This document shows, piece after piece, positions 764-39,147 of a stretch of 48,297 nt of DNA. Source of the DNA: Chitinophagaceae bacterium (lineage in GTDB: Bacteria; Bacteroidota; Bacteroidia; Chitinophagales; Chitinophagaceae); contig JAFBAN010000018.1 in NCBI GenBank assembly GCA_019247775.1, positions 1 through 48,297 of the forward strand. The letters run 5' to 3'. Position 1 is the first letter of the stretch; each line of letters opens with the position of its first letter. The position numbers and the translations under genes are program-made. The notes beneath the pieces were generated by a model that was not told the DNA's origin, did no database searches, and saw nothing but the letters and a program-made list of their open reading frames with translations.

Positions 764-791
764 GGCTAACGGCTAACAGTTAAAAGCTAAC
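764..791. repeat. Heptamer array, GGCTAAC family, single arm
   Basis: Four consecutive 7-nt units of the form RGYTAAM fill the space before the TSUP gene. No clear inverted partner is seen upstream. The same unit family recurs, inverted, at 1580-1691 and 29379-29511. Confidence 0.6.
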
Positions 792-814
792 AGGTCTACC
801 CTATCTTGCAATCC

Positions 815-1588
815 ATGACCATCTTTACCCTCGTACTGCTCTGCATTTTTGCGTTTACAGCCGGTTTTGTGGATGCGATCGCAGGCGGCGGCGGATTGAT
901 CCAGACCCCGGCAGCGCTCGTGCTGTTGCCGCAGTTGCCGGTGGCAACGGTGATCGGTTCGCTAAAGATCCCCGCTGTTACAGGCACCAGCTTTGCAGTG
1001 CGGCAGTATGTGAAAACGGTTTCGGTGAATATCCGGCTTGCCCTGCTGATGTGTGTCACCGCATTTTTCGCCGCATACGCAGGGTCTCAAATTTTGCTGG
1101 TAGTGAGCAACCGTTTCATGAAACCGGTGATCTTCATCATCCTGGTACTCGTGGCCATCTACACCTATGCCAACCGCAATTTCGGCGGGCATACGCATAA
1201 ATCGCATTCGGTAAAACGCCGTTCATTGTACGCTTTCCTGATCAGCCTGGTCCTGGGTTTCTATGACGGATTTATCGGACCCGGCGCAGGAAGTTTCCTG
1301 ATCCTCGCATTGATCACCGTGCTCGGGTTCGATTTTCTCCATGCCAGCGCCAATGCCAAGCTGATCAACATGTCGACCAACCTGGGTTCGATCGTGCTGT
1401 TCCTGCTCAAGGGCACCATACTCTGGCATATCGCACTTCCCATGGCCATCTGCAATGGCGCAGGCGGCCTGCTCGGCGCCAGACTTGCGATAACAAAGGG
1501 CAACCGTTTCATCCGGATCTTTTTCCTGGTAGTCGTTACTGCTACTTTGCTGCGGTTTGGGTATGACGTGTTCAGAAGCAGCTTTTAG
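815..1588 (+). CDS. TSUP-family membrane permease (TauE/SafE, YfcA-like)
   Basis: Inner-membrane protein of about 257 residues from the TSUP family, which moves sulfite, sulfonates or other organic anions; the substrate here is unknown. It has the glycine-rich signature after the first helix (VDAIAGGGGLI, about residues 19-29) and its repeat in the second half (GFYDGFIGPGAGSF), with about eight hydrophobic segments. An in-frame TTG at 806 lies only three codons upstream; the ATG at 815 is preferred. The stop codon TAG (1586-1588) lies inside the first units of the heptamer array that follows, so the last residues are encoded by array sequence. Confidence 0.85.
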   Translation: MTIFTLVLLCIFAFTAGFVDAIAGGGGLIQTPAALVLLPQLPVATVIGSLKIPAVTGTSFAVRQYVKTVSVNIRLALLMCVTAFFAAYAGSQILLVVSNRFMKPVIFIILVLVAIYTYANRNFGGHTHKSHSVKRRSLYAFLISLVLGFYDGFIGPGAGSFLILALITVLGFDFLHASANAKLINMSTNLGSIVLFLLKGTILWHIALPMAICNGAGGLLGARLAITKGNRFIRIFFLVVVTATLLRFGYDVFRSSF

Positions 1589-1691
1589 CTTTTAGCCGTT
1601 AGCTATTAGCCGACGGCTACAGTTGTTAAAATTTAACACAACTCTACTGGAAGAGTGAAGCTAACAGCTAAAACCTAATAACTAACAGCTG
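1580..1691. repeat. Inverted heptamer array, TTAGCYN family
   Basis: The left arm (1580-1614) is a run of 7-nt units AGCTTTT / AGCCGTT / AGCTATT. The right arm (1658-1691) is the inverted series GCTAACA / GCTAAAA / CCTAATA / ACTAACA. The arms pair in heptamer phase but not perfectly. The loop holds a second, smaller inverted repeat around 1621-1643. The TSUP stop codon lies in the left arm. Confidence 0.75.
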
Positions 1692-1791
1692 CCCTTTCCC
1701 AGCTTTAACCATAATTTATACCCCTTGCGTGAATTACCCTGCACCGCCCGGTGTAATTTTCAACATTCAATTTTGGTAACCAGTATCCGGG

Positions 1792-1799
1792 TAGATTTG
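1792..1799 (+). promoter_or_regulatory. Bacteroidetes -7 element TAGATTTG
   Basis: Exact match to TAnnTTTG, with a TTTTG 16 nt upstream as possible -33 element (1771-1775). It ends only 2 nt before the ATG at 1802, which questions that start codon. Confidence 0.5.
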
Positions 1800-1801
1800 A
1801 T

Positions 1802-2704
1802 ATGACGAATTACCAGTCTATGCAGGCATCTTTTGAACGGGAGAAAAACCTGAAAGCCTCCGCTTATACCGGCGTTGTGGTGGTATTGCTGCTGATCCTC
1901 TTCTTTTTTCTGCAGTGGACCCTCCCGCAGATCCCGGCGCCCAGTTATGGCGAAGGCATCGAAGTAAACCTCGGCAACAGCGAGACCGGCCTCGGCGATG
2001 TAGCCCCGCAGATCCCGGGCGAACCTTCCGCCACCCAGGAAGAAAAAACCGTAGCCCCCAAAAGCACACCCGCCAGTTCCGAACAAAAGATCAATGCCGA
2101 CGAATACGATGATGGGGATGCACCTGCGGTGAACAAGACCGCAAAAAAAACGGTTACCAAACCAGTTGTTGAACCGGCTAAAGTGGTGCGGAAGCCCACA
2201 CCTACCGCAGTTACCAATCCAACTCCCGCTCCGCCCAAGCCCAAAGCAGTATTCAAAGGTGGTATGAGTACAACCACCAGCGGCAACCGGGCAGATAGCT
2301 ACAATGGTGTCCGCAACCAGGGTATCGCCGGCGGCAAGGGCGACCAGGGTAATCCCAATGGAAACCCCAATTCAGATAGTTATAAAGGCAATGCGGCCAG
2401 CGGTAACGGTGGCAGCGGCGGCACCGGCGGTGTAAGCATCCGCAGCGGACTTGATGGAAGACGCATTACCAGGCTTCCCAGTTTTCAGGATGATTTCAAT
2501 GAGAACGCCAAAGTTGCCGTAGACATTACTGTAGATCGCGAGGGTAATGTAACGATGGCTGTTGTAAACCCCAGGGGCACCACTACCACCAACCAGTCTA
2601 TGCGGGCCATCGCGCTGCGCAAGGCAAGAAGCCTGAAACTGAGCAGCGGTACTTCCGATGAACAGACCGGCACCCTGGTCTTCAATTTCAAATTACGCGG
2701 TTGA
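1802..2704 (+). CDS. TonB-like energy transducer protein
   Basis: Protein of 300 residues with the TonB layout: short cytoplasmic N-terminus, one membrane helix (about residues 20-38), a Pro/Lys-rich linker (PVVEPAKVVRKPTPTAV, about 120-150), a Gly/Asn/Ser-rich stretch (about 160-215) and a C-terminal domain resembling TonB_C (VAVDITVDREGNVTMAVV). It probably couples inner-membrane proton-driven motors to outer-membrane or envelope partners. No exbB or exbD lies next to it in the window, so the motor subunits must be encoded elsewhere. It is followed by folC after 25 nt. A promoter element ends 2 nt before this ATG, so translation may really begin at the Met at 1820. Confidence 0.75.
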   Translation: MTNYQSMQASFEREKNLKASAYTGVVVVLLLILFFFLQWTLPQIPAPSYGEGIEVNLGNSETGLGDVAPQIPGEPSATQEEKTVAPKSTPASSEQKINADEYDDGDAPAVNKTAKKTVTKPVVEPAKVVRKPTPTAVTNPTPAPPKPKAVFKGGMSTTTSGNRADSYNGVRNQGIAGGKGDQGNPNGNPNSDSYKGNAASGNGGSGGTGGVSIRSGLDGRRITRLPSFQDDFNENAKVAVDITVDREGNVTMAVVNPRGTTTTNQSMRAIALRKARSLKLSSGTSDEQTGTLVFNFKLRG

Positions 2705-2729
2705 TCATTGTTGATTAATTTGCGACAGT

Positions 2730-4019
2730 ATGGATTATCAGCAGACCGTCGACTATCTTTTTACGAAGCTTCCCATGTTCAGCCGCATCGGCGCAGATGC
2801 GTTCAAGAAAGACCTTACCAATACGCTGAGTCTTTGCGCGGCGCTGGACAACCCGCAGCAAAAGTTCAGATCCATCCATATCGCAGGCACCAACGGCAAG
2901 GGCTCGGTGAGTCATATGCTGGCAGCAAGTTTGCAGGCCGCGGGGTATAAAACCGGGCTGTACACATCACCTCATCTCAAAGATTTCCGCGAACGAATCA
3001 GGGTGAACGGGCAATTATGCGATAAGTCATTCGTGATCGATTTTACCGAACGAATCATGCCATTGATCGATGAGATAGAACCTTCTTTCTTTGAGATAAC
3101 GGTTGCCATGGCCTTCGATTATTTTGCGCAGCAGAAAGTGGATGTGGCGGTGATCGAAGTGGGACTTGGCGGACGGCTCGACAGTACCAATATCATCATG
3201 CCCGATCTCTCCATCATCACCAATATCGGCTGGGACCATATGAACCTGCTGGGCGATACGCTGGATAAGATCGCGCTTGAAAAAGCGGGCATCATCAAAC
3301 AGAATACCCCGGTGGTGATCGGTGAAGCCACAGAGCAACTGAGGCTGATCTTCGACCAGGTAGCGGCCAGCAAAAAAGCGCCGATCAGTTATGCGGATGA
3401 AAAAAGATATGTAGCGGGATGGCGATCGGATCATCACCAGCTGAAAGTAGAGATCGCAGAAGGGCAGCATGACGAACACGAAAAATACACGCTGGATCTC
3501 GCCGGCATCTACCAGTTGAAGAACCTGGTCACTCTTCTTGAAGCAGTTCACCAGTTGCGGATGCTTGGCTGGAAACTGCCGGCAACAGTTGTGAAAGAGG
3601 CGCTGGCCCATGTGAAAAAACAGACCGGCTTCCATGGACGCTGGGAAACCATCAGCGAACATCCTTCTGTGGTACTGGATGTGGGACATAATCCTGATGG
3701 CATGGCGCAGATCGTCCGTCAGCTCGAGCTCACCAGCTACCAGCATCTTCATATCATCATCGGCCTGGTCAAGGACAAAGAAATAGACAAAGTGCTTGCC
3801 CTGCTGCCCAAACATGCCAGCTACTATTTCACGCAGGCCCGGATCCCGCGCGCACTCGATGCCCACAGCCTGAAGCTGAATGCCGAGCGCGCCGGCCTGA
3901 GCGGTCAGATCTACGACGAAGTGAATACCGCGTTGAAAGCAGCAGTATCCCACGCACACAAAGAAGATCTCGTACTGGTTTGCGGAAGTGTTTTCCTGGT
4001 GGGAGAAGTAAATCTCTGA
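2730..4019 (+). CDS. folC: Folylpolyglutamate / dihydrofolate synthase
   Basis: Cytoplasmic Mur-ligase-type enzyme of 429 residues that adds glutamate to dihydropteroate and/or tetrahydrofolates using ATP. The nucleotide-binding loop GTNGKGSV is at residues 53-60, followed by the folate-binding SPHLKDFRERI motif. VIEVGLGGRLDSTN and the C-terminal-domain motif DVGHNPDG are also present; full family length. Probably cotranscribed with the upstream TonB-like gene (25-nt gap). Its stop is 3 nt from the stop of the convergent NUDIX gene, leaving no room for a private terminator. Confidence 0.95.
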   Translation: MDYQQTVDYLFTKLPMFSRIGADAFKKDLTNTLSLCAALDNPQQKFRSIHIAGTNGKGSVSHMLAASLQAAGYKTGLYTSPHLKDFRERIRVNGQLCDKSFVIDFTERIMPLIDEIEPSFFEITVAMAFDYFAQQKVDVAVIEVGLGGRLDSTNIIMPDLSIITNIGWDHMNLLGDTLDKIALEKAGIIKQNTPVVIGEATEQLRLIFDQVAASKKAPISYADEKRYVAGWRSDHHQLKVEIAEGQHDEHEKYTLDLAGIYQLKNLVTLLEAVHQLRMLGWKLPATVVKEALAHVKKQTGFHGRWETISEHPSVVLDVGHNPDGMAQIVRQLELTSYQHLHIIIGLVKDKEIDKVLALLPKHASYYFTQARIPRALDAHSLKLNAERAGLSGQIYDEVNTALKAAVSHAHKEDLVLVCGSVFLVGEVNL

Positions 4020-4022
4020 CGC

Positions 4023-4586
4023 TTATTTCAGCTGCAGCCTGCCAAGTTTTTCAAGAGCGAGATGAATAGCCACCATGTGCATGGCCTGGATGAACTTTCT
4101 CTCTTTTACAAACTGCACCAGTTCATCGAGGGTCACGAATAACAGTTCGATATCTTCTCCCTCATCCAGCTCCTGCTTACCCGCTTTTTCGCCGCCGGTA
4201 GCCAGGAACATATGCATGAGGTTGGTATTGGTGGATGGATTGGCGGAGGTTTTGCCGAGATACTCGAACTTCTCAAACACATAGCCTGTTTCTTCGCGCA
4301 GTTCGCGGGCAATGGCTGCTTCGTAACTGGGGTCGCTCCTGTCGACGCAGCCGCCCGGTATTTCGAGATCGGTCTCGCCCAATGCATGCCGGTATTGCCG
4401 CTCCAGGATCACCTGTCCATCTTTCGTGATCGCAACGGCAGTTACCCAGTCGGGGAAATTGTAAACATAGTAGGGAGAAACGATCGTTCCATCGGGCCGC
4501 TCGCAGGTATCGGCACGGATGTTCATCCATGTTTCGGTGAAGATCTGTTTGGAAGATATCGTCTTCCATTTCATGTTCCGCTCCAT
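4023..4586 (-). CDS. NUDIX hydrolase (ADP-ribose pyrophosphatase-like)
   Basis: Protein of 187 residues in the NUDIX fold. The Nudix box is clear: GGCVDRSDPSYEAAIARELREETGY matches GX5EX7REUXEEXGU with one extra residue in the first spacer. The EIPGG and YRHALGETDLE segments resemble ADP-ribose pyrophosphatases of the NudF type. It likely hydrolyses a nucleoside diphosphate linked to a sugar. The start is the ATG that overlaps the stop of the DinB/YfiT gene (TAATG at 4584-4588), implying translational coupling; an in-frame start further upstream would lie inside that gene. Confidence 0.9.
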   Translation of the reverse strand: MERNMKWKTISSKQIFTETWMNIRADTCERPDGTIVSPYYVYNFPDWVTAVAITKDGQVILERQYRHALGETDLEIPGGCVDRSDPSYEAAIARELREETGYVFEKFEYLGKTSANPSTNTNLMHMFLATGGEKAGKQELDEGEDIELLFVTLDELVQFVKERKFIQAMHMVAIHLALEKLGRLQLK

Positions 4587-5113
4587 TACCAGCCTTTGCT
4601 TTCCCTTAGCGAATTGATATGGGCCGTGTGGTGTTTGCCATGCCAGGAATAAAGTCCGAGTAAGAACCACAAACTCATCTGTCTTCCATGCTCGGGGTGC
4701 ACCACGGTGCGTTCATAAGCCGCAGCAGGCAGATCGCGGATGAACTCGTACCAGCGCTGGTGCACGGCATGCAGGATGGTAAGCGAAACATTGATAGGCA
4801 CCCGCTCATTGTCGGATAATTTCGCCCATTCTTTTTCATCGTATGGCTTGATGGTAGGGTTGTCTTCCGTATACCCCAGCTTAAAACGGATATACGCATT
4901 CATATGGCTGTCGGCGACATGATGCACCAACTGCCGCACCGTCCATCCTCCCTCACGATAGGGCGTATCCAGCTGCGCAGCATCCAGGTTCAGCACGGAG
5001 CGCTCCAGCTCTTCAGGTAAAAATTTAATATCCAGTAACCATTTTTCTTTTTGCGCTTCGGAGAAAGTCTGCGGTTCGTATTTGCCGATGGGGTAACGGG
5101 GATCTTGAGGCAT
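4586..5113 (-). CDS. DinB/YfiT-family metal-dependent thiol transferase-like protein
   Basis: Protein of 175 residues in the DinB four-helix family, YfiT/BstA branch. Members use a triad of histidines to bind a divalent metal. The candidate ligands are in HHVADSH (about residue 65) and in WHGKHHTAH near the C-terminus. Some relatives are bacillithiol S-transferases; the substrate here is unknown. It is translationally coupled to the downstream NUDIX gene. No Shine-Dalgarno is seen: an array of heptamers runs up to the ATG, so the mRNA leader is repeat sequence. Confidence 0.85.
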   Translation of the reverse strand: MPQDPRYPIGKYEPQTFSEAQKEKWLLDIKFLPEELERSVLNLDAAQLDTPYREGGWTVRQLVHHVADSHMNAYIRFKLGYTEDNPTIKPYDEKEWAKLSDNERVPINVSLTILHAVHQRWYEFIRDLPAAAYERTVVHPEHGRQMSLWFLLGLYSWHGKHHTAHINSLRESKGW

Positions 5114-5194
5114 AGTCTGGAGTTTGGAGTTAGGAGTCTAGTAGGGTTTAGAGTTTAGCGTTCAGCGTTCGGCATTCAGCATTCAGCATTTAGC
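5114..5194. repeat. Compound heptamer array: AGTYTGG drifting into GCATTCA
   Basis: About eleven units in a row fill the space between the ABC ATPase stop and the DinB/YfiT start. Read on the plus strand the unit changes stepwise: AGTCTGG, AGTTTGG, AGTTAGG, AGTCTAG, a 2-nt slip, GGGTTTA, GAGTTTA, GCGTTCA, GCGTTCG, GCATTCA twice, GCATTTA. Neighbouring units resemble each other more than distant ones. There is no inverted partner. The array abuts the start codon at 5113. Confidence 0.8.
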
Positions 5195-5199
5195 CTTCT

Positions 5200-5961
5200 C
5201 TATTCTTCCCGCAGGTGTTTGCCGGTCATCTGGATGAAGACGTCTTCGAGATTGGCCTGTTTTACTTCGCGGGGTTTTTCGAAGCCGGTGGCTACCAGTT
5301 CATCGATCAGTTTGTCGGGCGAATTAAGAGCGATGATCTTGCCGCTGTCGATGATCGCTACCCTGTCGCAGAGCACTTCCGCTTCATCCATATAATGCGT
5401 GGTGATGATCACTGTTGTGCCGCGGCTGCGGATATCGCGGATCAGGTCCCAGAGATTTCTTCTTGCCTGCGGGTCCAGGCCCGTGGTCGGTTCATCCAGA
5501 AAAATGATCCTCGGTTTATTGATCAGCGTAGTGGCAATGGAGAAGCGCTGCTTTTGCCCCCCGCTCAGCTCTTTGAATTTTGCCCTCGCCTTATCGCGGA
5601 GATTGACCGTATCCAGCAAAGCCATCGGATCGATATCCTCATTGTACAGCCCGGCAAACAAGTGAATGAGCTCGGTAAGATTGAGCCCCGGGTAATATCC
5701 TGAAGTCTGCAGCTGTACGCCGATGATCTTTTTGATCTCATTGGGCGACTCATCGAGATTGAGTCCATTCACATACACTTCACCGCTGGTCTTCTCCCGG
5801 AGGGTCTCGATGATCTCGAGCGTAGTGGATTTACCGGCGCCGTTGGGTCCGAGCAACCCGAAGATCTCATTCTCCATTACATCGAAGCTGATGCCTTTCA
5901 CCGCTTCGAAGTCGCCGTATTTCTTGTGCAGGTCTTTGACCCGGATGATCGTTTCTGCCAT
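5200..5961 (-). CDS. ABC transporter ATP-binding protein (ABC-2/export type)
   Basis: Cytoplasmic ATPase of 253 residues with every core motif: Walker A GPNGAGKST (38-46), signature LSGGQ (132-136), Walker B IIFLDEP (152-158) followed by TTGLDPQ, and the switch His in ITTHYMDEAE. The sequence is close to ATPases of ABC-2 exporters (CcmA-like: DrrA, NatA and related). Its permease is not adjacent: the upstream neighbour is an unknown exported protein and the downstream one a DinB/YfiT protein, so the membrane subunit must be elsewhere. The start lies 2 nt after the stop of the upstream gene, so it is probably in one operon with fbp. Confidence 0.9.
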   Translation of the reverse strand: MAETIIRVKDLHKKYGDFEAVKGISFDVMENEIFGLLGPNGAGKSTTLEIIETLREKTSGEVYVNGLNLDESPNEIKKIIGVQLQTSGYYPGLNLTELIHLFAGLYNEDIDPMALLDTVNLRDKARAKFKELSGGQKQRFSIATTLINKPRIIFLDEPTTGLDPQARRNLWDLIRDIRSRGTTVIITTHYMDEAEVLCDRVAIIDSGKIIALNSPDKLIDELVATGFEKPREVKQANLEDVFIQMTGKHLREE

Positions 5962-5963
5962 AA

Positions 5964-6446
5964 TCAGAATTTGAATACAAGCCCCGCCTGCCGGTCGCCC
6001 AGCCCAATGCCCAACGAAGCCCGGTTGTAGCGGTAGTTGAAAACATCGACTGCCGACTGCAGGTGCTGCTGTCCCCTAAAGATAAGATATCCGCCTGTAA
6101 GCGTTGCTGCAAAGCCGCCGCCGATAAAAGCCCAGGCAGTTCCTTTGTTATCCCCCGAAAGCTTGCTAACGCCTACGATCGTTGCAACAGAACCCAACAA
6201 GCTGATGATATTGCCGGAGATCTTATTCGATTGATGTTTAGTGTACAGCCTGATAATTTCCGGATCGCCCGAACGGTAAAACAGGAGCCTGAATTGTCCG
6301 GCGCCGCGGTACAGGGTATCATGATAGAGGATATTGTTGGGCTTTGCGCCTGCTATCAAATTCATTCCCGGCGTTATTTTCTGCTGGGCAGATAAGCTTC
6401 CGCCGATAAAACAGCCGACCAAAGTCAGCAATACAAATATTTTCAT
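5964..6446 (-). CDS. Unknown exported protein with hydrophobic segments
   Basis: Protein of 160 residues, family not recognised. A signal peptide ending near SLSAQQ (about residue 21) is visible. The middle contains two glycine-rich hydrophobic segments (ISLLGSVATIVGVSKL and AWAFIGGGFAATLTGGYLIF) and the C-terminus ends in GLVFKF, an aromatic end often found on outer-membrane proteins. It lies 2 nt after fbp and 2 nt before the ABC ATPase, so the three genes are almost surely cotranscribed. Its role is unknown. Confidence 0.75.
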   Translation of the reverse strand: MKIFVLLTLVGCFIGGSLSAQQKITPGMNLIAGAKPNNILYHDTLYRGAGQFRLLFYRSGDPEIIRLYTKHQSNKISGNIISLLGSVATIVGVSKLSGDNKGTAWAFIGGGFAATLTGGYLIFRGQQHLQSAVDVFNYRYNRASLGIGLGDRQAGLVFKF

Positions 6447-6448
6447 AA

Positions 6449-10360: not shown

Positions 10361-10379
10361 TCCACAGCGGAGCTGTGGA
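10361..10379. repeat. Perfect short palindrome TCCACAGC-GGA-GCTGTGGA
   Basis: An 8-bp perfect inverted repeat with a 3-nt centre directly beside the left arm of the heptamer hairpin. It has no T-tract on either strand, so it is not a classical terminator; it could be an operator or part of the repeat structure. Confidence 0.45.
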
Positions 10380-10482
10380 GTCTGGAGTTAGAAGTTAGGA
10401 GTCTGGAGTAATGAACCGGTGATGGGAAGACCAAACCGACTCCAAACCCTCACTCCAGACTCCAGACTCCTAACTCCAGACT
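10379..10482. repeat. Inverted heptamer array, AGTYTGG family
   Basis: Left arm 10379-10409 (units AGTCTGG, AGTTAGA, AGTTAGG, AGTCTGG, AGT) and right arm 10452-10482 in the opposite sense, loop of about 42 nt. The right arm ends 1 nt from the hpd stop codon (10484-10486). Confidence 0.8.
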
Positions 10483-10483
10483 T

Positions 10484-11614
10484 CTACAAATTTCCTCTCG
10501 CCTCCTGCTCCCGCTCGATCGCTTCGAAGAGGGCTTTGAAATTGCCTTTACCGAAGCTCTGGGCGCCTTTTCGCTGGATGATCTCGAAAAACAGGGTGGG
10601 CCGATCCTCCACCGGCCGGGTGAATATCTGGAGCAGGTAGCCTTCATCGTCCCGGTCTACCAGGATACCCAGTTCTTTCAGGGGCTCCAGGTCTTCGTCG
10701 ATATGGCCTACCCTGTCGAGCAGGTCTTCGTAATACGTGCCGGGCACTTTGAGGAATTCGATGCCCCGCTGCTGCAGTTCGGTAACGGTTTTAACGATAT
10801 CATTGGTGGCAAGCGCCACATGCTGACAGCCCTCGCCGTCGTAGTAATCAAGGTACTCTTCCACCTGTGATTTTTTCTTGCCTTCCGCGGGTTCGTTGAT
10901 GGGGAATTTCACGAAACCGTTGCCGTTGCTCATCACTTTACTCATCAGGGCCGAGTATTCCGTGGAAATATCATTGTCGTCGAAGCTGAGGATATTTCGG
11001 AATCCCATCACATCCTGGTAAAATTTCACCCAGGGGTTCATCTGGTTCCAGCCTACATTGCCAACGCAGTGATCCACATACAGCAGACCCGTTTCGGTTG
11101 GATTGTACTGCGATACCCAGGGCCTGTAACCGGGCAGGAAAGCGCCATGATAATTTTTCCGTTCGATAAAAAGGTGAACGGTTTCGCCATAGGTATGGAT
11201 GCCGCTCATCACCACTTCACCCTGTTCATCGCTCAGTTTGATGGGTTTCATATAGCTTCTGCCGCCGCGGTCGGTTGTCTGCTTCCAGGCGTCGGCAGCA
11301 TCGTCTACTCTCAGGGCCAGGGTCTTTACCCCATCGCCGTGCTTGTAAATATGATCCGCGATCTCATTCTGGCTGCGAAGCGGCGTGGTGAACACGAAAG
11401 TGAGTTTGTTCTGGCGCACGGCATAACTGGCGCGATCCTTCACACCGGTTTCAGGACCGGCATAGGCGAGACTCTGAAAACCGAAAGCGGTCTTATAAAA
11501 ATGCGCCGCCTGTTTGGCGTTGCCAACATAGAATTCAACATAGTCGGTACCCTGCAGCGGCAGAAAATCTGTTTGTGTTGCAGGAACAGTAGTATTACGA
11601 AGGAGCGTATCCAT
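10484..11614 (-). CDS. hpd: 4-hydroxyphenylpyruvate dioxygenase
   Basis: Fe(II)-dependent cytoplasmic enzyme that turns 4-hydroxyphenylpyruvate into homogentisate in tyrosine and phenylalanine breakdown. It is 376 residues long with two vicinal-oxygen-chelate halves. The three iron ligands are visible: His182 (VDHCVGN), His265 (CQHVAL) and Glu344 (FFEIIQRKG). No other gene of the homogentisate pathway lies next to it. Upstream on the same strand are a perfect -7 element and a possible 30-codon leader ORF. The stop codon touches the end of a heptamer hairpin. Confidence 0.96.
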   Translation of the reverse strand: MDTLLRNTTVPATQTDFLPLQGTDYVEFYVGNAKQAAHFYKTAFGFQSLAYAGPETGVKDRASYAVRQNKLTFVFTTPLRSQNEIADHIYKHGDGVKTLALRVDDAADAWKQTTDRGGRSYMKPIKLSDEQGEVVMSGIHTYGETVHLFIERKNYHGAFLPGYRPWVSQYNPTETGLLYVDHCVGNVGWNQMNPWVKFYQDVMGFRNILSFDDNDISTEYSALMSKVMSNGNGFVKFPINEPAEGKKKSQVEEYLDYYDGEGCQHVALATNDIVKTVTELQQRGIEFLKVPGTYYEDLLDRVGHIDEDLEPLKELGILVDRDDEGYLLQIFTRPVEDRPTLFFEIIQRKGAQSFGKGNFKALFEAIEREQEARGNL

Positions 11615-24543: not shown

Positions 24544-24563
24544 AGAAAAGGAAAAAGAACAAG

Positions 24564-24710
24564 GAACAGAGGAGCAAGGAACAAGGAACGGGAAACTTAG
24601 TCTGGAGTTTGGAGTCTGGAGTTTGGAGTTTGGAGTCTGGAGTATTATAATAAAGGTATTCTTAATTGCCTTCGTCCGATCCTTGCTCCTTGTTTCTTGC
24701 TCATCTGTTC
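24564..24710. repeat. Nested heptamer arrays: AAGGAAC arms around an AGTYTGG loop
   Basis: Outer arms 24564-24587 and 24687-24710 match at 22 of 24 positions (units AAGGAAC / GAGCAAGG). In the loop, 24598-24648 contains six tandem AGTYTGG heptamers without inverted partner. The right arm ends one base before the glucanotransferase stop codon; the left arm begins about 20 nt before the epimerase start. Confidence 0.8.
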
Positions 24711-27686: not shown

Positions 27687-27754
27687 AGTCTGGAGTCTGG
27701 AGTTAGGAGTCTGGAGTCATTTTTCTCTTTACTCCAGACTCCTAACTCCAGACT
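27687..27754. repeat. Perfect inverted heptamer array, AGTCTGG family
   Basis: The 24-nt right arm (27731-27754) is the exact reverse complement of 27694-27717; one extra heptamer extends the left arm to 27687. The loop is only 13 nt (27718-27730). The right arm encodes the last residues of the GMC oxidoreductase, whose TAA lies at the loop edge. Confidence 0.9.
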
Positions 27755-29363: not shown

Positions 29364-29378
29364 GAACTAATATAAGCA

Positions 29379-29511
29379 TTTAGCTTTTAGTTTTTAGCCA
29401 TTAGCTACGAGCCACTAGCTTCAGCCACTAGCTCATGTGGCAAATGATGATGAATACCGCCCGGTTTATGACGAACAAGCTAGCAGCTGGTAGCTGGCGG
29501 CTAACAGCTAA
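29379..29511. repeat. Inverted heptamer array, TTAGCYN family, divergent gap
   Basis: Left arm 29379-29434 (units TTAGCTT, TTAGTTT, TTAGCCA, TTAGCTA, then CGAGCCA, CTAGCTT) and right arm 29478-29511 (GCTAGCA, GCTGGTA, GCTGGCG, GCTAACA). Pairing is imperfect but in heptamer phase. It is the only array here between two divergent genes. Confidence 0.75.
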
Positions 29512-32240: not shown

Positions 32241-32282
32241 ATCGGAGATTTTAGTAATGGTACGGTTTAAATGCTGAGGCCA

Positions 32283-32381
32283 GGTTAACCGCAAAGACGC
32301 CAAAGACGCAATGATACGCAAGGGGCTGTCACCGAGGGTTTCCTTCGCGTTGCTTTGCGCCTCAGCGCCTTCGCGGTTAAA
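32283..32381. repeat. Inverted repeat of CGCAAAGAC type
   Basis: Left arm 32283-32322 and right arm 32342-32381 pair as TTAACCGC...ACGCRAAGG with mostly transition differences. Units are 8-10 nt, not 7. The surrounding space (32241-32534, 294 nt) holds no gene; the part after 32381 shows nothing recognisable. Confidence 0.75.
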
Positions 32382-32534
32382 TTCAAACTGTGCAATTACC
32401 TAGATTTTGGAATTGATACGTAGCACCCGACAAGTTCGAAATTTCCCAATTCCAAAATCCCTGATCCGCGATCTCAAATCTTCCCATCCCCATCTCCCCT
32501 TCCTTCGCTAATTTAGCGCAGCCATTAACTAACT

Positions 32535-33320: not shown

Positions 33321-33338
33321 GACCGCATCAATATTATT

Positions 33339-33812
33339 ATGCAGGGACATCAGTTACAGATCTATACAGACGGGGCGGCCAGAGGAAACCCCGGACCGGG
33401 CGGATACGGGATCGTATTATGCTGGGGCAACACCAGGAAAGAATTATCGGCCGGCTATCGTCTTACCACCAATAACAGGATGGAACTGATGGCGGTGATC
33501 GTGGCCCTGCAATCGCTCACCAAACAGCATATCCCCGTTACTGTGTATACCGATAGCCAGTATGTGGCGAATGCGATCGAAAAAAAATGGCTGAACAACT
33601 GGATCCGCACCGATTTCAAAGGCGGTAAGAAGAACAAGGATCTCTGGATGCAGTACCATGCCATCGCCAAAAATTTCAAAGTAAGGTTCGTATGGGTGAA
33701 AGGACATGCGGATAATCCCCTCAATAACCGCTGCGATGAACTTGCCACTGCAGCTGCCGACGGCCATGATCTGCTGGTAGATGAGTGGTACGAACGTGAA
33801 GCGGGATCATAA
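33339..33812 (+). CDS. rnhA: Ribonuclease HI
   Basis: Cytoplasmic endonuclease of 157 residues that cuts RNA in RNA-DNA hybrids. The four carboxylates are Asp11 (YTDGAARGNPG), Glu49 (RMELMAV), Asp72 (VYTDSQYV) and Asp133 (RCDELA), with His123 (VKGHADNP). Length is typical of the E. coli-type enzyme. It probably shares a transcript with PhzF. Confidence 0.95.
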   Translation: MQGHQLQIYTDGAARGNPGPGGYGIVLCWGNTRKELSAGYRLTTNNRMELMAVIVALQSLTKQHIPVTVYTDSQYVANAIEKKWLNNWIRTDFKGGKKNKDLWMQYHAIAKNFKVRFVWVKGHADNPLNNRCDELATAAADGHDLLVDEWYEREAGS

Positions 33813-33840
33813 AAAGCTTCGGATTGAAAGTTGGGGCCGG

Positions 33841-33940
33841 GTTTCGCTAAGAGGAAAAAAGAGCGAAAGAGTCAAGGAGGCGTTTCGCAGATTTGTGTCC
33901 TCTCCTTGGCTCCTTTACTCCTATCCACTCTTGGCGAAAC
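33841..33940. repeat. Imperfect inverted repeat, AAGGAGY type
   Basis: Left arm 33841-33880 and right arm 33899-33940 share GTTTCGCYAAGAG ends and AAGGAG-type inner units of 7-8 nt. It separates rnhA from the DUF71 ATPase gene; the right arm ends 16 nt before that start codon. Confidence 0.7.
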
Positions 33941-33956
33941 ATATAAAAGCATCACT

Positions 33957-34631
33957 ATGAGTAATGAGTTTTTATGCAGCTGGAGCGGGGGCAAAGACAG
34001 CTGCTTTGCGTTGATGAAAGCCGTACAGTCGGGCTCCACACCCAAAGTGCTGCTGAACGTGCTGAATGAGGAAGGGCGGATATCACGCAGTCATGGCATC
34101 CCTGCTGCCATCCTCGAAGCACAGGCGTCCAGTGCCGGCTTGCCGGTTCACCTGATCAGCAGCAGCTGGCAGGAATACGAGCGGCATTTTACGAACGCTT
34201 TGGCTGATCTGAAGGAAAGATTTTCATTGACACATGCGGTATTCGGAGATATCGACCTGCAGCCCCATCGCGACTGGGAAGAAAAGGTCTGTTCCAATGC
34301 CGGACTCAGTGCCCTGCTTCCTTTGTGGCAGCAGGACCGCAGACAACTGGTGATGGCGATGATCGGGAGTGGTATCGAAGCCATGATAGTGAGTTGTAAT
34401 ACGGTAATGGGTGAAAAATTCCTGGGCAGGCTGATCACCCCTGAACTTGTGCAGGAGCTGGAATCCCTTGGTGTGGATGCCTGCGGTGAGAATGGCGAAT
34501 TCCATACCCTTGTACTGAACTGCCCGCTGTTCAGCAAGCCCATTCAGACCCGGATCGACCGCACCATCCAACACGAGAACTATTGGTTCTGCGAACTGCG
34601 CCTGACAGATAATTTACCCGATCCAGGATAA
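33957..34631 (+). CDS. DUF71 PP-loop ATPase (diphthine-ammonia ligase-like)
   Basis: Protein of 224 residues with the PP-loop SWSGGKDSCFALMKA (ATP pyrophosphatase) at the N-terminus. The rest follows the Diphthami_syn_2 / MJ0570 family: RISRSHGIPAAILEAQA, TNALADLKERFSLTHAVFGDIDLQPHRDW and GVDACGENGEFHTLVLNCPLF. In eukaryotes and archaea relatives amidate diphthine; bacteria have no diphthamide, so the bacterial role is unknown. The start follows the inverted repeat; frames extending upstream would run through it. Confidence 0.88.
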   Translation: MSNEFLCSWSGGKDSCFALMKAVQSGSTPKVLLNVLNEEGRISRSHGIPAAILEAQASSAGLPVHLISSSWQEYERHFTNALADLKERFSLTHAVFGDIDLQPHRDWEEKVCSNAGLSALLPLWQQDRRQLVMAMIGSGIEAMIVSCNTVMGEKFLGRLITPELVQELESLGVDACGENGEFHTLVLNCPLFSKPIQTRIDRTIQHENYWFCELRLTDNLPDPG

Positions 34632-34653
34632 ACGAAAAATATCTCGCAAATAA

Positions 34654-34680
34654 AAAGCGGCCTGAAGCCGCTTTATGTTT
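34654..34680. terminator. Bidirectional hairpin terminator
   Basis: Eight-base perfect stem AAAGCGGC / GCCGCTTT (34654-34661 and 34667-34674) with 5-nt loop. T-rich sequence follows on both strands, serving the convergent DUF71 and DUF6580-like genes. Confidence 0.75.
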
Positions 34681-34692
34681 TCAATTTTTTTT

Positions 34693-34720
34693 CTCACGTC
34701 TGACGACTCACGTCTCACGC
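34693..34720. repeat. Heptamer array, ACGTCTC family, single arm
   Basis: Units ACGTCTG, ACGACTC, ACGTCTC and ACGCCAA run in 7-nt register. The stop codon of the minus-strand membrane protein (34715-34717) lies inside the array. No inverted partner. Confidence 0.6.
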
Positions 34721-35284
34721 CAACTGCTTCTTCGCAAACCAATTCCTGGCAAAATAATAAGAACCGAACAGGATCACTGAGAATACAACCGTTGCAAGCA
34801 GGCTGTTCCTGTAGAAAGGCAATGCATCCTGGTAAGTCAGCAGCAGGCCGTTAAACGTTTGGGGGCGATTCAGGCCGAATCCCCTGTTGCTGCTCCACAC
34901 CAGGAAATTGGATATGAGGAAATGCACGGTAGGCGCGGCCAGTACCGCTATGATCATATTGGCGACCTTTCCTTTTTTGATCATGAACCCGAAACAGGTG
35001 AGCCCTGCAAACAAAAGGTAGTTGATCCACTGCCCTTCATAAAAGCCGAAGATCGGGGTCAGCCCATAACTATACAGCACCTGGTACAACAGATCCGACA
35101 GGAACATGGACAGCAAAGGCAGGGCGAAAGCCCATTTTTTGTCGCGGACGAACAGTGAGCCGCTGAATATTCCCAGCGCCCATTGCGGTGCAAAGCCCCA
35201 GGGCCTGTTGGGCAGTATCCTGTATAATGCTGTGACCAGTACCATCAAAACAAGGGAGATAACCAGGGATCTGTTTATTTTCAT
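34715..35284 (-). CDS. Membrane protein, DUF6580-like
   Basis: Protein of about 189 residues with five or six helices (SLVISLVLMVLVTALYRILP, FALPLLSMFLSDLLYQVLYSYGL, WINYLLFAGLTCFGFMI, ANMIIAVLAAPTVHFLISNFLVW, SLLATVVFSVILFGSYYFA). The RILPNRPWGFAPQWALGIFSG start fits the DUF6580 family found in Bacteroidota, which resembles ECF transporter S subunits; this is from memory of the pattern. The ATG at 35284 is preferred to one 21 nt upstream. Its stop codon is within a heptamer array. Confidence 0.78.
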   Translation of the reverse strand: MKINRSLVISLVLMVLVTALYRILPNRPWGFAPQWALGIFSGSLFVRDKKWAFALPLLSMFLSDLLYQVLYSYGLTPIFGFYEGQWINYLLFAGLTCFGFMIKKGKVANMIIAVLAAPTVHFLISNFLVWSSNRGFGLNRPQTFNGLLLTYQDALPFYRNSLLATVVFSVILFGSYYFARNWFAKKQLA

Positions 35285-35334
35285 TTGATTCAGTTTCAGC
35301 AGCAAAAATACGCGTTATAGAGATTGGGACGGTG

Positions 35335-36567
35335 TCAATTTTCCCCAGCCTGTGAACTGGCTATGGGCGGTACAAAAGCCTTGAACAGGGTGCTATGTCC
35401 CGAGGCCTGGATCGTGTATTCGCCGCCGGCTAACACTGCCACGGCTTCGCCTCTTTTCAGTACCATGCTGTTGTTGATGACCGCGCCGCCTTCCGTTACC
35501 ACCAAGATCTCGAAGGATGCGGCCGTATTCGAATAGGCTGTACCGGACGTAAGCTCGATCCGCGCTATGCCGAAGTCCTTGACCGGGCATGGATACAATG
35601 TTTCTCCGGTTAGGCCGGGCACGCCCTGAAGGATACGCGGGGTTACGGGCTCGAAGGAGGTATGTTTGATCAGTTCAGGTACATCGATATGCTTCGGCGT
35701 GAGTCCGGCACGCAGCACATTATCGCTGTTCGCCATCAGTTCCACATCCTGCCCTTCAAGATAGGCATGCGGTACGCCGGCCCCCTGAAAAAGTGCTTCC
35801 CCCGGGTTCAGTTTCACAATATTGAACAGGTAGATGGAGAACACTGCCCGGTCTATTTCCTGCACCGGATTGCCGGACTGATAAAGTTTTGCCACCCACC
35901 AGCCGGGCATCTCTTTTGTCAGTAGGCCGTCGTTCCAGTTGCGGATCTCCCGCTTCACCAGGTCGCGCAGCAGGGCATTGATCTCCTGCTGTTCCATTTC
36001 CATCACCATCCCGTACAATGCTTTCAATCCTTCCCGTTTGTAATATGGCAGCAATACTTTGAATTCATAGATCGATGCCAGCGTTGCTTCTATTTCGGCT
36101 TTCTGTTTAAATCCATGTAAAAGCCAAAACTCGCTGAGGGCTACCAGCATCTCGGGTTTATGGTTCCGGTCTTTGTAGTTGCGGTGCGGGGCCGTGATGG
36201 GGATACCGGCTGCTTCTTCGCGTTCGAATCCTTTTTGCGCTTCCTCCCTGGAAGGATGCACCTGGATTGACAATATCTCCCGCACATCCTGTACTTTGAA
36301 CAGGTAAGGAAGTCCCGAAAAAAGCTCTGCAACTCCTGCTGAGAGCAGCACTGTGGGCTCATCGCGGATCAATCCATCCAGTGCCACGGGCTGGCCGGCC
36401 ACGATCAACTCAGACGGGGCCGATGGATGGGCGCCCATCCAGTATTCTGCAAAAGGGCGATGATCCGTATTGGCAATACCCAGGAATGATGGAAGGAAAT
36501 CATAGCCTCCCCATGCATAATGCAGGATTTTTCCCTGGAGCTTGTACAATTTTTCACTCAATTCCAT
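35335..36567 (-). CDS. manA: Mannose-6-phosphate isomerase, class I
   Basis: Zinc enzyme of 410 residues that interconverts mannose 6-phosphate and fructose 6-phosphate. Zinc ligands are visible: Gln102 and His104 (SIQVHPSR), Glu139 (HKPEM) and a His near 266 (GVPHAYLEG). The N-terminus KLQGKILHYAWGGYDFLP is typical. It feeds GDP-mannose and envelope sugar synthesis. TAGGTTTA upstream of the start is one mismatch from the -7 consensus. It is divergent from the YraN gene. Confidence 0.95.
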   Translation of the reverse strand: MELSEKLYKLQGKILHYAWGGYDFLPSFLGIANTDHRPFAEYWMGAHPSAPSELIVAGQPVALDGLIRDEPTVLLSAGVAELFSGLPYLFKVQDVREILSIQVHPSREEAQKGFEREEAAGIPITAPHRNYKDRNHKPEMLVALSEFWLLHGFKQKAEIEATLASIYEFKVLLPYYKREGLKALYGMVMEMEQQEINALLRDLVKREIRNWNDGLLTKEMPGWWVAKLYQSGNPVQEIDRAVFSIYLFNIVKLNPGEALFQGAGVPHAYLEGQDVELMANSDNVLRAGLTPKHIDVPELIKHTSFEPVTPRILQGVPGLTGETLYPCPVKDFGIARIELTSGTAYSNTAASFEILVVTEGGAVINNSMVLKRGEAVAVLAGGEYTIQASGHSTLFKAFVPPIASSQAGEN

Positions 36568-36657
36568 AAGTACTAATTACCCGTATAAACCTATAACGAC
36601 TAAATCGCGAATATCTTGTATCCCTCGCTACTTTTAACGCAATGTGAATGGCTTTAT

Positions 36658-37014
36658 ATGAATGATAACAAAACCACCGGGCAGCGGGGTGAGGAACTGG
36701 CCGCGGACTGGCTGCTGGGCAAAGGGTATCAGATACTGGCCCGCAACTGGCGGTTCAGGCACTGGGAAGTGGATATTATTGCCGCCAAAGGCCGGTGCCT
36801 GCATTTTATCGAGGTAAAGACCCGGGCCTCGCTCCGGTACGGAAGACCCGAAGAAAGCATCACCCGCGATAAAATGACCTGTCTGAAAAATATCGCGGAA
36901 GAATATCAGTACCAGCACCCCGAATGGCAGTATGTTCAGTTCGACGTGATCGCCATCACCATTACCGACGATCATTTACGCGAACTGTTTGTGATAGAGG
37001 ATGTGTATTTTTAA
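36658..37014 (+). CDS. YraN/UPF0102-family nuclease-like protein
   Basis: Protein of 118 residues, the normal family size. It begins NKTTGQRGEELAADWLLGKGYQILARNWR and carries the restriction-nuclease-like motif EVDIIAAKGRCLHFIEVKTR (Glu, Asp and E-x-K). Members are predicted DNA endonucleases related to Holliday-junction resolvases; the cellular role is unclear. The ATG at 36658 is chosen over a TTG at 36616. The stop codon TAA overlaps the first unit of an AATTAAT heptamer array. Confidence 0.9.
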   Translation: MNDNKTTGQRGEELAADWLLGKGYQILARNWRFRHWEVDIIAAKGRCLHFIEVKTRASLRYGRPEESITRDKMTCLKNIAEEYQYQHPEWQYVQFDVIAITITDDHLRELFVIEDVYF

Positions 37015-37047
37015 TTAGTAATTAAGAATTAATAATAAATAATTGGG
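37013..37047. repeat. AT-rich heptamer array, AATTAAT family
   Basis: Five exact-register heptamers: AATTAGT, AATTAAG, AATTAAT, AATAAAT, AATTGGG. The array begins in the stop codon of the YraN gene and ends 4 nt before the GNAT start at 37052. No inverted partner. Confidence 0.7.
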
Positions 37048-37051
37048 AAAC

Positions 37052-37483
37052 ATGGTACAGACTGCCGTTAACGCTTCTGATATCGGCAAATGCTGGAAGG
37101 TGATGCATGAGCTGAGGCCACATCTTGCGGAAGAAAATTTTGTAGCTACCGTTACGGAAATGATGCAGGAAGGTTACCAGCTCGCCTTCATTGAAGGGGA
37201 TAATGGCTATGCGGTGTCGGCCATCGGTTTCAGGTACCAGCAGTTCCTGTTCAACGGCAAACATTTCTATATCGACGATCTTTCTACTTTACCGGAAGCA
37301 AGAGGAAAAGGGTATGGCGGCCGGCTGATCGATCATGTATGCGCCCTGGCCAGACAGCGCGGCTTTGATGTGGTTACGCTCGACTCGGGCCATCAGCGTT
37401 TTGCCGCACACCGGCTTTACCTTAACAAGGGGTTCGTGATCGCCTCCCACCATTTCTCCAAAAAACTGGCGGAAGATTTTTAA
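37052..37483 (+). CDS. GNAT-family N-acetyltransferase
   Basis: Protein of 143 residues in the GNAT fold. The acetyl-CoA motif A is LPEARGKGYGGRLIDHVC, preceded by the IDDLST strand and followed by VVTLDSGHQRFAAHRLYLNKGFVIASHHF. The substrate is unknown. The ATG at 37052 is preferred to a TTG at 37043. The whole space from the preceding gene is a heptamer array. It is convergent with the YkgJ gene. Confidence 0.9.
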   Translation: MVQTAVNASDIGKCWKVMHELRPHLAEENFVATVTEMMQEGYQLAFIEGDNGYAVSAIGFRYQQFLFNGKHFYIDDLSTLPEARGKGYGGRLIDHVCALARQRGFDVVTLDSGHQRFAAHRLYLNKGFVIASHHFSKKLAEDF

Positions 37484-37489
37484 GCGCGG

Positions 37490-37990
37490 TTATTGTTTAC
37501 TGATCTCTATCATCCGTTCCACCATATTAAAAGTAGCCGGACAGAATTCGATATTTTGTTTGTGCACATGCATGTACTCGGTCATCTTCCGTTTTTTGAG
37601 GTAAGGGAAACCGGCGCAGTCTGCGGGCCTCACTTCGTAGATACTGCATTTATTATCGCGCATATCAAGGAACTGGCAGGGTTGTTTTTTATTGATCAGG
37701 TCCTTGCCCTCATCGTCAAGCACCAGCCATTTATTTTTGAATGCGGCCGGCGTCATCCCGAGATGCGCGGAGATGCGTACGATATCGCTTCGCTTGAAGG
37801 TTGGCGTCATACTTTTACAGCAGTTGCCGCAACTCAGGCAATCCATTCCCTTCCACACTTCCGTGTCTACGCGTGCAGCGATGTTGTCCAGGCCGCGCGG
37901 CGGATTTTTTTCCAGTCTGGTAAGATAACGCTGCAGGATCTTGCCACGAAGCCGCACCTGGTGTTTGAATGAACGAAGCGAAAAAGGCAT
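37490..37990 (-). CDS. YkgJ-family cysteine-cluster protein
   Basis: Protein of about 166 residues with conserved cysteines expected to bind zinc or an iron-sulfur cluster: CLSCGNCCKS in the middle, then CQFLDMRDNKCSIYEVRPADCAGFPYL and a C-terminal FCPATF. The start at MPFSLRSFKHQV (37990) fits; a Met ten codons upstream is possible. The cellular role of the family is unknown. It is divergent from xerD. Confidence 0.88.
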   Translation of the reverse strand: MPFSLRSFKHQVRLRGKILQRYLTRLEKNPPRGLDNIAARVDTEVWKGMDCLSCGNCCKSMTPTFKRSDIVRISAHLGMTPAAFKNKWLVLDDEGKDLINKKQPCQFLDMRDNKCSIYEVRPADCAGFPYLKKRKMTEYMHVHKQNIEFCPATFNMVERMIEISKQ

Positions 37991-38099
37991 AGAATCTGAT
38001 TGAGATCTGTTCGCCCGCAATATCGGTCAGGCCCCCATCAGTTCCAAAATTTAGTATACACATCGGCGCCAATCCAACCCCAAGTGCTAACTTGCTTCG

Positions 38100-38142
38100 A
38101 ACGCAGAACGCCAAACGCCAGACTCCAAAACTCCAGACGCTC
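38100..38142. repeat. Compound heptamer array upstream of xerD
   Basis: Units AACGCAG, AACGCCA, AACGCCA, GACTCCA, an 8-nt AAACTCCA and GACGCTC run up to the xerD ATG at 38143. Two unit families are fused. The minus strand of 5114-5194, before the DinB/YfiT start, has the same order (AACGCYR then ACTCCAR). Confidence 0.7.
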
Positions 38143-39045
38143 ATGTGGGACGCTTACAAAAAAGGATACAAAGCCTGGCTGCAACTGGAAAGATCGCTTA
38201 GCGATAATTCGGTTAACGCCTACCTGCGCGATGTGGACAAACTGACCGAATACCTGCAGGCCAGCGGATCGATGAAGACACCCGATCAACTGGAGCTGCG
38301 CGACCTGCAGCAATTCGTAAAATGGATCGGGGAATTGGGTATGACCGCCAATTCGCAGGCGCGGATCATTTCGGGCATCCGGAGTTTTTATAAATATTGT
38401 CTGGCAGAGCAGATCAGCAAAACAGATCCCTCTACCCTGCTCGAAGCCCCTCGCAGCCGCCGCAAGCTGCCCGATACCCTGAGCTTCGAAGAGATCGAGA
38501 ACATTATTGCGCAGATCGATCAGAGCACACCGGAGGGCGGGCGCAACAAAGCCATTCTCGAAACCATGTACAGCTGCGGCCTGCGTGTGAGTGAAGTGGT
38601 AAACCTTAAACTGTCCTGCCTGTATCTCGATGTAGGTTTTATCCGGGTAATCGGAAAAGGCGACAAAGAAAGACTGGTACCGATCGGAAGCGACGCGGTC
38701 AAATATATCCGCATCTACAAAGACGATATCCGCGTGCACCAACCGATCCAATATGGTTTCGAGGATATCCTGTTCCTGAATAACCGCGGCAAAAACCTGT
38801 CCAGGGTAATGATCTTTTATATCATTAAAGCCCTTGCCGCTAAAGCAGGCATCGCGAAGAATATTTCTCCCCACACTTTCCGTCATTCCTTCGCCACTCA
38901 CCTGGTAGAAGGCGGCGCCGACCTCCGTGCAGTTCAGGAAATGCTTGGCCACGAAAGCATCACCACCACGGAGATCTACACCCACCTGGACAGAGATTTT
39001 TTACGCGACACGCTGCAGCGATTCCATCCGGCGTTCAGGAGTTAG
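38143..39045 (+). CDS. xerD: Site-specific tyrosine recombinase XerD
   Basis: Protein of 300 residues, the usual XerD size. The N-terminal SAM-like DNA-binding half is residues 1-105. Catalytic residues: Arg148 (CGLRVSE), Lys172 (GKGDKER), His244 and Arg247 (HTFRHSFA), His270 (LGHESI) and Tyr279 (EIYTH). It acts with XerC at dif to resolve chromosome dimers. No att sites, transposase or cargo are near, so it is a housekeeping gene rather than an integrase. The leader is a heptamer array; the stop TAG lies at the tip of the next array. Confidence 0.94.
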   Translation: MWDAYKKGYKAWLQLERSLSDNSVNAYLRDVDKLTEYLQASGSMKTPDQLELRDLQQFVKWIGELGMTANSQARIISGIRSFYKYCLAEQISKTDPSTLLEAPRSRRKLPDTLSFEEIENIIAQIDQSTPEGGRNKAILETMYSCGLRVSEVVNLKLSCLYLDVGFIRVIGKGDKERLVPIGSDAVKYIRIYKDDIRVHQPIQYGFEDILFLNNRGKNLSRVMIFYIIKALAAKAGIAKNISPHTFRHSFATHLVEGGADLRAVQEMLGHESITTTEIYTHLDRDFLRDTLQRFHPAFRS

Positions 39046-39147
39046 TCTGGAGTTAGGAGTCTGGAGTCTGGAGTATTTTTTTGCGCAAAGATTCTCCAGG
39101 CACAAATCACTCCAAACTCCAGACTCCAGACTCCTAACTCCAGACTA
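39043..39147. repeat. Perfect 32-bp inverted heptamer array ending in both stop codons
   Basis: Left arm 39043-39074 (T plus AGTCTGG, AGTTAGG, AGTCTGG, AGTCTGG, AGT) is the exact reverse complement of 39116-39147. The loop is 41 nt, with one more heptamer at its right end (39109-39115). The outer TAG of each arm is the stop codon of the gene entering from that side (xerD and the vWA gene). Confidence 0.92.

Follow-up and report, generated by a model that had tools for sequence, protein, structure and literature searches.

The window analysed here, a stretch of 48,297 nucleotides (nt) from a Chitinophagaceae bacterium (assembly GCA_019247775.1, contig JAFBAN010000018.1), carries in its spacers tandem arrays of degenerate heptamers whose unit sequence varies at a constant 7-nt period. 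Neighbouring arrays of one family are usually inverted relative to each other and form the two arms of a hairpin, of which the G-richer comes first. The two arms share minor unit variants, runs of the dominant family extend from anchor to anchor, families change in place between close species, and species differ strongly in the number of arrays that they hold. Heptamer repeats are already known elsewhere; the many-family hairpin form with a single polarity is absent from the texts consulted. We favour the view that mutation at the DNA level, proceeding by 7-nt steps, produced the arrays, and not a single mobile element or a gene system of their own, although we rate it at a little less than an even chance. 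The window genome is near the Sediminibacterium group, the closest among the listed loci having 72% identity in one protein.

Heptamer arrays in intergenic DNA

Period-7 repeats are familiar from the short tandemly repeated repetitive (STRR) heptamers of heterocystous cyanobacteria. In a 2007 survey of long simple sequence repeats (LSSRs), Mrazek reportedly found period 7 to be the commonest class and suggested a polymerase footprint as its source. In the accounts of these repeats consulted, neither architecture nor polarity is treated. A preliminary description of the window had noticed tandem degenerate heptamers at 11 places. The 250-nt stretch around each of these scores 11 to 29 at lag 7, the lowest values being those at 34693 (11.0) and 764 (11.5), whereas the maximum among 4000 Markov-resampled stretches of the same length is 10.0. 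Over the whole window, self-match at lag 7 is 0.325 in spacers versus 0.247 in coding DNA, and spacer values at lags 5, 6, 8, and 9 range from 0.249 to 0.272.

Arrays were scored by script, and genes were called by a simple codon-score script instead of a standard annotator. One sample of 189 kb joined the window to ten contigs of its genome taken without selection; here lag 7 yielded 29 noncoding arrays, none in coding DNA, and none in shuffled spacer DNA. A single noncoding array, at lag 8, was obtained from the other lags between 4 and 13, and each further lag tested, multiples of 7 apart, gave four spacer arrays at most. A larger sample of 986 kb covers 24% of the genome, many of its contigs having been picked because they hold AGTYTGG. 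At period 7 it contains 169 spacer arrays and 12 within called genes, and 0–10 spacer arrays at each period that is not a multiple of 7. Gene-internal arrays lie at L040 1040-1142, L051 13841-14029, L056 1419-1449, and L059 7339-7398, where either the gene call could be wrong or an array could truly have been inserted. The autocorrelation check proposed in the preliminary description gave spacer peaks at 7, 14, and 21 (0.309, 0.301, and 0.296, other lags being at 0.27–0.29) and no peak at 7 in coding DNA.

Among 227 arrays, we distinguished 49 canonical units, which reduce to 21 families when units are merged at one mismatch. Some of these families intergrade inside one array, as at 5114-5198. 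The observation of intergenic period-7 arrays with many families is confirmed, and the data support the proposal of a single process that acts with a fixed 7-nt step on many sequences and is nearly absent from coding DNA. As tandem, intergenic 7-nt units exceeding chance, the arrays belong with heptameric simple sequence repeats of the LSSR or STRR kind.

Inverted pairs with the G-rich arm first

Four features were absent from the preliminary description: the inverted-pair architecture, its polarity, the abutment of arms on stop codons, and the replacement of one family by another in the same position. Where two arrays of one family lie within 200 nt, they are inverted in 63 cases versus direct in nine, and the larger families occupy both strands about equally. 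The outer edge of an arm keeps a median distance of 4 nt to stop codons (within 8 nt in 46 of 64) and of 50 nt to start codons (n = 57). Loops of at least 20 nt are mostly unrelated, with any match in 6 of 45. They retain a weak lag-7 signal (0.332 vs. 0.25–0.28), as decayed arrays would show. Nested arrangements, with an inner family within an outer one, occur at 24548-24702 of the window and on L023 and L027. By eye, a single AGTYTGG arm has no inner palindrome, and no consistent T run follows the arms, an impression by eye with no dedicated terminator scan run. Elsewhere, heptamer arrays surround and separate a group of tRNA genes (Thr, Gly, Tyr, Thr; L060 9804-10373), and one arm-loop-arm stretch, loop included, appears to be tandemly duplicated (L026 14777-15161).

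The 5' arm of inverted pairs is the G-richer one in 56 cases against two in the window genome, leaving aside as ambiguous the 11 of 69 whose arms differ in skew by no more than 0.1. The bias recurs in the cluster of close relatives around genome G110 (23:1; 2 of 26 pairs excluded; orthologous spacers are included, so that the pairs are not independent), in other members of the genus (5:0), and in cyanobacteria (12:1), giving 96:4 over the four data sets. It holds at tandem, convergent, and divergent gene pairs, the last contributing 12 decided pairs. Lone arrays likewise read G-rich inward from the nearest gene edge in 45 of 52 decided cases (45:7), a count restricted to arrays of clear skew that lie neither in wide spacers nor in mid-spacer. 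Spacer composition was rejected as the source of this polarity: array-free spacers are biased in the opposite sense at convergent pairs (9:22), are almost balanced at tandem pairs (28:27 and 31:20), and tend to G-first at divergent ones alone (50:14). The inverted repeats of array-free spacers have no G-first bias (52:66 and 20:20); some of these spacers contain long inverted repeats that are not heptameric.

The dominant family, AGTYTGG, shows how the arrays are built. Exactly four units are present in 53 of 100 runs; 66 of the 100 start precisely at an AGT anchor, and 73 finish with exactly one further AGT. Such anchor-to-anchor ends are what slippage between anchors predicts. The four-unit strings CTCC and CCTC occur 11 times each. 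A minor unit variant is common to both arms of one spacer in 16 of 18 informative pairs versus 8.9 expected (P = 0.0007; 25 pairs tested, seven uninformative), which indicates that the arms are copied from each other or arise together.

Turnover between species and distribution over genomes

Between 18.7 and 41 kb, the window is collinear with contig SAIX01000070.1 of isolate CW02. Five collinear spacers carry arrays in the window genome only and two in CW02 only; two have arrays in both, but of different families. The spacer with the arms 39044..39074 and 39109..39146 measures 1–139 nt in seven relatives, six of which have no array there, the seventh (G069) having a single array of another family. 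Turnover was also followed in G110, G088, and G084, with 96–98% median protein identity in the compared region, and in G095 and G064, with 88–92% to the others compared. Of 78 collinear spacers compared with G110, 22 carry an array in one or more of the genomes. When the five genomes were compared pair by pair, these spacers gave 114 comparisons: an array in both genomes in 72, in one only in 32, and in neither, at the threshold used, in 10. Where both have an array, the family is the same in 30 comparisons, differs by two mismatches in 23, and is different in 19. By eye, spacers 25, 43, 49, 67, and 69 keep a hairpin in position with both of its arms built from other units, and unit number differs in spacers 17 and 47, the latter having about two units in one species and five in another.

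Within the genus, 57 of 147 genomes matched a pattern of AGT-anchored arrays, with hundreds of matches in some and 462 in the window genome. It had zero matches in several near-complete genomes of about 3–4 Mb, for example G061, G070, G071, G011, and G017, of which the last four are 84–85% identical to array-rich G110 in one protein. The pattern is loose and blind to other unit families; G068, with seven matches in 4.5 Mb, nevertheless holds seven arrays in 120 kb. Since the pattern misses these families, lag-7 arrays were counted directly in the loci of this protein comparison: none were present in 55 kb from 12 genomes without AGT matches, versus 11 in 61 kb from 14 genomes with at least 20 matches. 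Across the phylum, 282 of 395 sampled genomes had at least one match to the pattern, about 0.4 per genome being estimated by chance, so that prevalence is only loosely bounded; other heptamers match the backward control, which is not clean for that reason. The unit AGTTAGG also occurs in a Rivularia genome, with 433 matches for two tandem units. Genomes with at least 20 AGT-array matches, 32 of the 147 in the genus, are called array-rich below, and the other 115 serve for comparison. SbcD scored above its family cut-off in four of the 147, none of them array-rich, and in 8 of 14 control genomes. Lack of SbcD may make palindromes or hairpins possible, but it does not separate array-rich from array-poor genomes.

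The arrays could be functional RNA hairpins, terminators or 3' mRNA stabilizers whose sequence is free to change. Their abutment on stop codons, the frequent retention of position in close species while the sequence changes, and a paired A-T to G-C change that preserves the stem in spacer 31 agree with this idea. However, sense-strand mismatches in stems are as often A-C (31) as G-U (33), which speaks against RNA-level selection, here rejected for want of a G-U excess, and for DNA-level causes. Decided pairs also occur in divergent spacers, terminator-like hairpins with T runs adjoin the arrays (spacers 28, 37, 39, 59, and 73, by eye), and related species without AGT-array matches lack arrays in the loci counted. 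A role as RNA hairpins is therefore improbable in our view. Still more so, and very unlikely, is that a dimeric or multimeric DNA-binding protein recognizes the arrays at 7-nt spacing: the 3- to 5-nt anchors with constant spacing and variable linkers (computed for AGT, by eye for others) and the fixed inward polarity would suit such a protein, but some 21 families in one genome and the change of family between close species leave no common site.

The arrays of the window are listed in table 1. The GMC oxidoreductase gene shares its 3' end with an array arm (27729-27740), and the protein matches of relatives mostly stop about 4–14 residues earlier; arrays may thus lengthen C-termini. Two further dispersed repeats without a 7-nt period, at 44083-44295 and 32241-32534, have copies of 76–91% identity in other spacers of the genome. 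The window has no tRNA gene.

Table 1. Heptamer arrays of the window and adjoining genes
Position	Strand	Feature	Context
763..793	-	Lone degenerate array, GTTAGCC-type units	G-rich strand is minus; lag-7 score 11.5
815-1588	+	TauE/SafE-like gene (Pfam)	Downstream of array 763..793
1580..1612	+	5' arm, TTAGCNN family
1659..1690	-	3' arm (AGCTAAC)	Partner of 1580..1612; loop about 48 nt
4586-5113	-	DinB gene	Flanks array 5114..5198
5114..5198	+	Array, units shifting gradually from AGTYTGG to AGTTTAG to CATTCAG	Occupies entire spacer between DinB and ABC transporter genes
5200-5961	-	ABC transporter gene	Flanks array 5114..5198
10376..10409	+	5' arm, AGTYTGG family
10452..10482	-	3' arm (ACTCCAG)	Loop 42 nt; adjoins stop of gene 10484-11614 (-)
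24548..24589	+	Outer 5' arm, AAGGAAC family	Nested arrangement
24599..24643	+	Inner AGTYTGG array	Inside AAGGAAC nest; no clear partner
24680..24702	-	Outer 3' arm (TCCTTGC)	10 nt from 4-alpha-glucanotransferase stop
27687..27718	+	5' arm, AGTYTGG	CW02 ortholog spacer without array
27731-27740		Short partner of 27687..27718	Overlaps 3' end of GMC oxidoreductase gene
29375..29433	+	5' arm, TTAGCNN family	Divergent spacer
29478..29511	-	3' arm	Partner of 29375..29433; CW02 ortholog spacer without array
34692..34719	-	Short ACGTCTC array	At stop of gene 34715-35245 (-); separate terminator-like hairpin beside it (by eye)
37012..37043	undefined	AATTAAT-type array	Almost self-complementary
38099..38129	-	Lone array, AACGCCA/ACTCCAG	Upstream of XerC/D-like integrase gene; CW02 ortholog spacer has array of different family
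39044..39074	+	5' arm, AGTYTGG	Immediately after integrase gene stop
39109..39146	-	3' arm	Partner of 39044..39074; loop 34 nt; adjoins stop of VWA gene (39145-41091, -)

Possible origin of the arrays and known heptamer systems

In the reading that we favour, slippage would be the engine: anchors of 3–5 nt such as AGT and AGC, recurring every 7 nt, would slip and multiply during replication or repair. Arrays would then be copied in inverted orientation to the opposite side of a spacer, and also between spacers, and such copying would give both arms the same family and the same minor variants. Selection would remove arrays from genes and core promoters, leaving them to fill the space between stop codon and promoter, where they would turn over fast and probably lack a function.

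Several observations weigh against this reading. Plain slippage does not predict the inverted pairs, the G-first polarity, or the preference for four units with minor units inside: four-unit AGTYTGG runs start and end with AGTCTGG in 43 of 53 cases (22.6 expected), the minor units being mostly in the two inner positions. The favoured combination of slippage and copying also leaves the cause of the polarity unaccounted for. Unit order is not mirrored between arms, the stem score being 20.35 as observed and 20.35 with unit order shuffled (n = 59; 19.74 vs. 19.32 in the G110 cluster, n = 21); arms are therefore not, as a rule, copied whole by fold-back, and that mechanism was rejected. Nine same-family pairs are direct. 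Indels touching arrays in alignments of close species are not mainly multiples of 7, partly because whole arrays are replaced. Twelve arrays sit in called genes in the 986-kb sample, which is biased, and the sampled parts of G010 (80 kb), G061 (31 kb), and G017 (20 kb) have no lag-7 array at score 13. Among cyanobacteria, 9 of the 13 inverted pairs come from one Rivularia genome, and direct pairs exceed inverted ones in Mastigocoleus (five to one) and in an Oscillatoriales genome (five to two). Finally, Y1 transposase genes are present in 22 of 32 array-rich genomes versus 15 of 115 others (Fisher's exact P = 2e-9).

This last association, together with the identical arms found at many spacers (CTCC and CCTC), would be expected of a mobile element, related to repetitive extragenic palindromic sequences (REPs) and their hairpin-forming doublets (REPINs) or to miniature inverted-repeat transposable elements (MITEs), that is moved by a transposase, the arms being its ends and the loop its cargo. 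Inverted pairs with variable loops are also reminiscent of REPINs and of bacterial interspersed mosaic elements (BIMEs). REPs themselves are single imperfect palindromes of 20–40 nt with a GTAG- or CGTC-type tag. The window genome has two matches to Y1 transposases of the REP-associated tyrosine transposase (RAYT) type. However, among genomes of at least 3.0 Mb, Y1 is present in 19 of 29 versus 11 of 26 (P = 0.11); much of the association can thus be put down to genome size. Y1 matches are missing from 10 of the 32 array-rich genomes, including G110 (one contig, 99% complete) and G072 (six contigs, 100%), unlike the dependence on a Y1/RAYT transposase that defines REPs and REPINs, and G036, G098, and G102 have Y1 with no AGT-array match. 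No lag-7 array lies in the 3.2–3.3 kb fetched around each of the two Y1 loci of the window genome. The internal sequence and target-site duplication shared by MITEs were not found either: loops are mostly unrelated, and duplication at array flanks is not clear, the mean shared flank word being slightly longer than in re-paired flanks in the window genome (3.13 vs. 2.88, SD 0.10; at least 6 nt in 2 of 68) and 3.10 versus 3.11 in the G110 cluster. We regard a mobile element as unlikely.

The polarity itself suggests a process at DNA ends. A break in a spacer would expose two 3' ends, which would be extended 5' to 3' with G-rich heptamers, as at telomeres, or protected by orientation-dependent G-rich motifs, as with Chi, and later rejoined through the loop. 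Extension at two 3' ends would produce G-first inverted arms without mirrored unit order. The G-first ratio in all gene contexts, the inward reading of lone arrays, the unmirrored units, and the mostly unrelated loops fit. Against it, the roughly 21 families of one genome match no single template, and some loops resemble ancestral sequence by eye. The preliminary description had suggested a copying enzyme; one of the reverse transcriptase type finds no backing, since the window genome gives no RVT_1 match. Reverse transcriptase was rejected as the determinant, RVT_1 being present in 16 of 147 genomes (6 of 32 array-rich, 10 of 115 others), and so was Ku, present in seven (3 of 32 and 4 of 115). 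We consider end extension distinctly unlikely. Improbable too, and the boldest of the readings, is a widespread and so far unrecognized DNA-end process, telomere-like or Chi-like and in no need of RVT_1. Starting at both gene edges, it would add or preserve G-rich heptamers in the 5' to 3' direction up to a spacer break, in Bacteroidota, cyanobacteria, and perhaps Xanthomonas.

Known heptamer systems share some of these properties. The cyanobacterial precedent invoked in the preliminary description is borne out. The trnL intron of Nostoc has degenerate heptamer stems (PMC4476775, PMC3488679) that are replaced as a whole at one site (PMC4476775). As far as the accessible text of these papers goes, the P6b stem-loop resembles our arrays in having degenerate heptamers on both stem sides, in-place replacement of unit classes, and length variation by unit number (seen by eye in ours), and its classes, TDNGATT and NNTGAGT, contain G and no fixed C. 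Heptamers on both stem sides and replacement at a fixed site are thus found in both systems. In contrast, P6b is one group I intron locus and a functional RNA, whereas our arrays are genome-wide in spacers and of about 21 families.

The intergenic heptamers GGGAATC and GGGGA(C/T)T of Xanthomonas and Nostoc were studied as G-quadruplexes (Rehm 2015, PMC4692102). According to the available portions of that paper, the Xanthomonas arrays include 70 and 75 cases of two nearby sites convergent on opposite strands, and they lie closer to the 5' neighboring gene (28 nt) than to the downstream gene (160 nt), a placement that we read as compatible with the G-first rule. The Nostoc heptamers have few inverted pairs. 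Unlike ours, the system described there has a single unit family and conserved genomic sites with length and sequence variation, and no many-family polarity is presented.

TAACTGA heptamers were reported in Beggiatoaceae, cyanobacteria, and five Bacteroidetes, three of which hold other heptamer repeats in the same spacers (MacGregor 2015, PMC4679880). In the parts of the paper available, these repeats, like ours, are intergenic and can be lacking in close relatives, and indels between two Cyanothece strains are mostly of 7-nt steps; in the main genome there is chiefly one unit, mostly direct and placed immediately before start codons, one set being inverted, and it is read as regulatory. Mrazek 2007 is cited there for the polymerase idea. 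In view of this report, the statement in the preliminary description that no account was known from Bacteroidota is partly wrong. For the Chitinophagaceae, searches of open-licence full text, a few of which named the family, yielded no account, and the texts contained no many-family, G-first hairpin architecture, although subscription journals may hold more. The accessible part of a lake metagenome paper that covers Chitinophagaceae and tandem repeats (PMC9426551) describes no such arrays.

The question of why the step is 7 nt dates back to the first reports that, in many bacteria, heptamers are the commonest class of long simple repeats. One genus now offers species with hundreds of arrays beside species with none detected, with near-complete genomes in both, so that comparing them may lead to the genetic determinant. 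The G-first rule, common to many units and to two phyla, tightly constrains any model, and hairpins that change beside stop codons among close species represent an unusual mode of spacer evolution.

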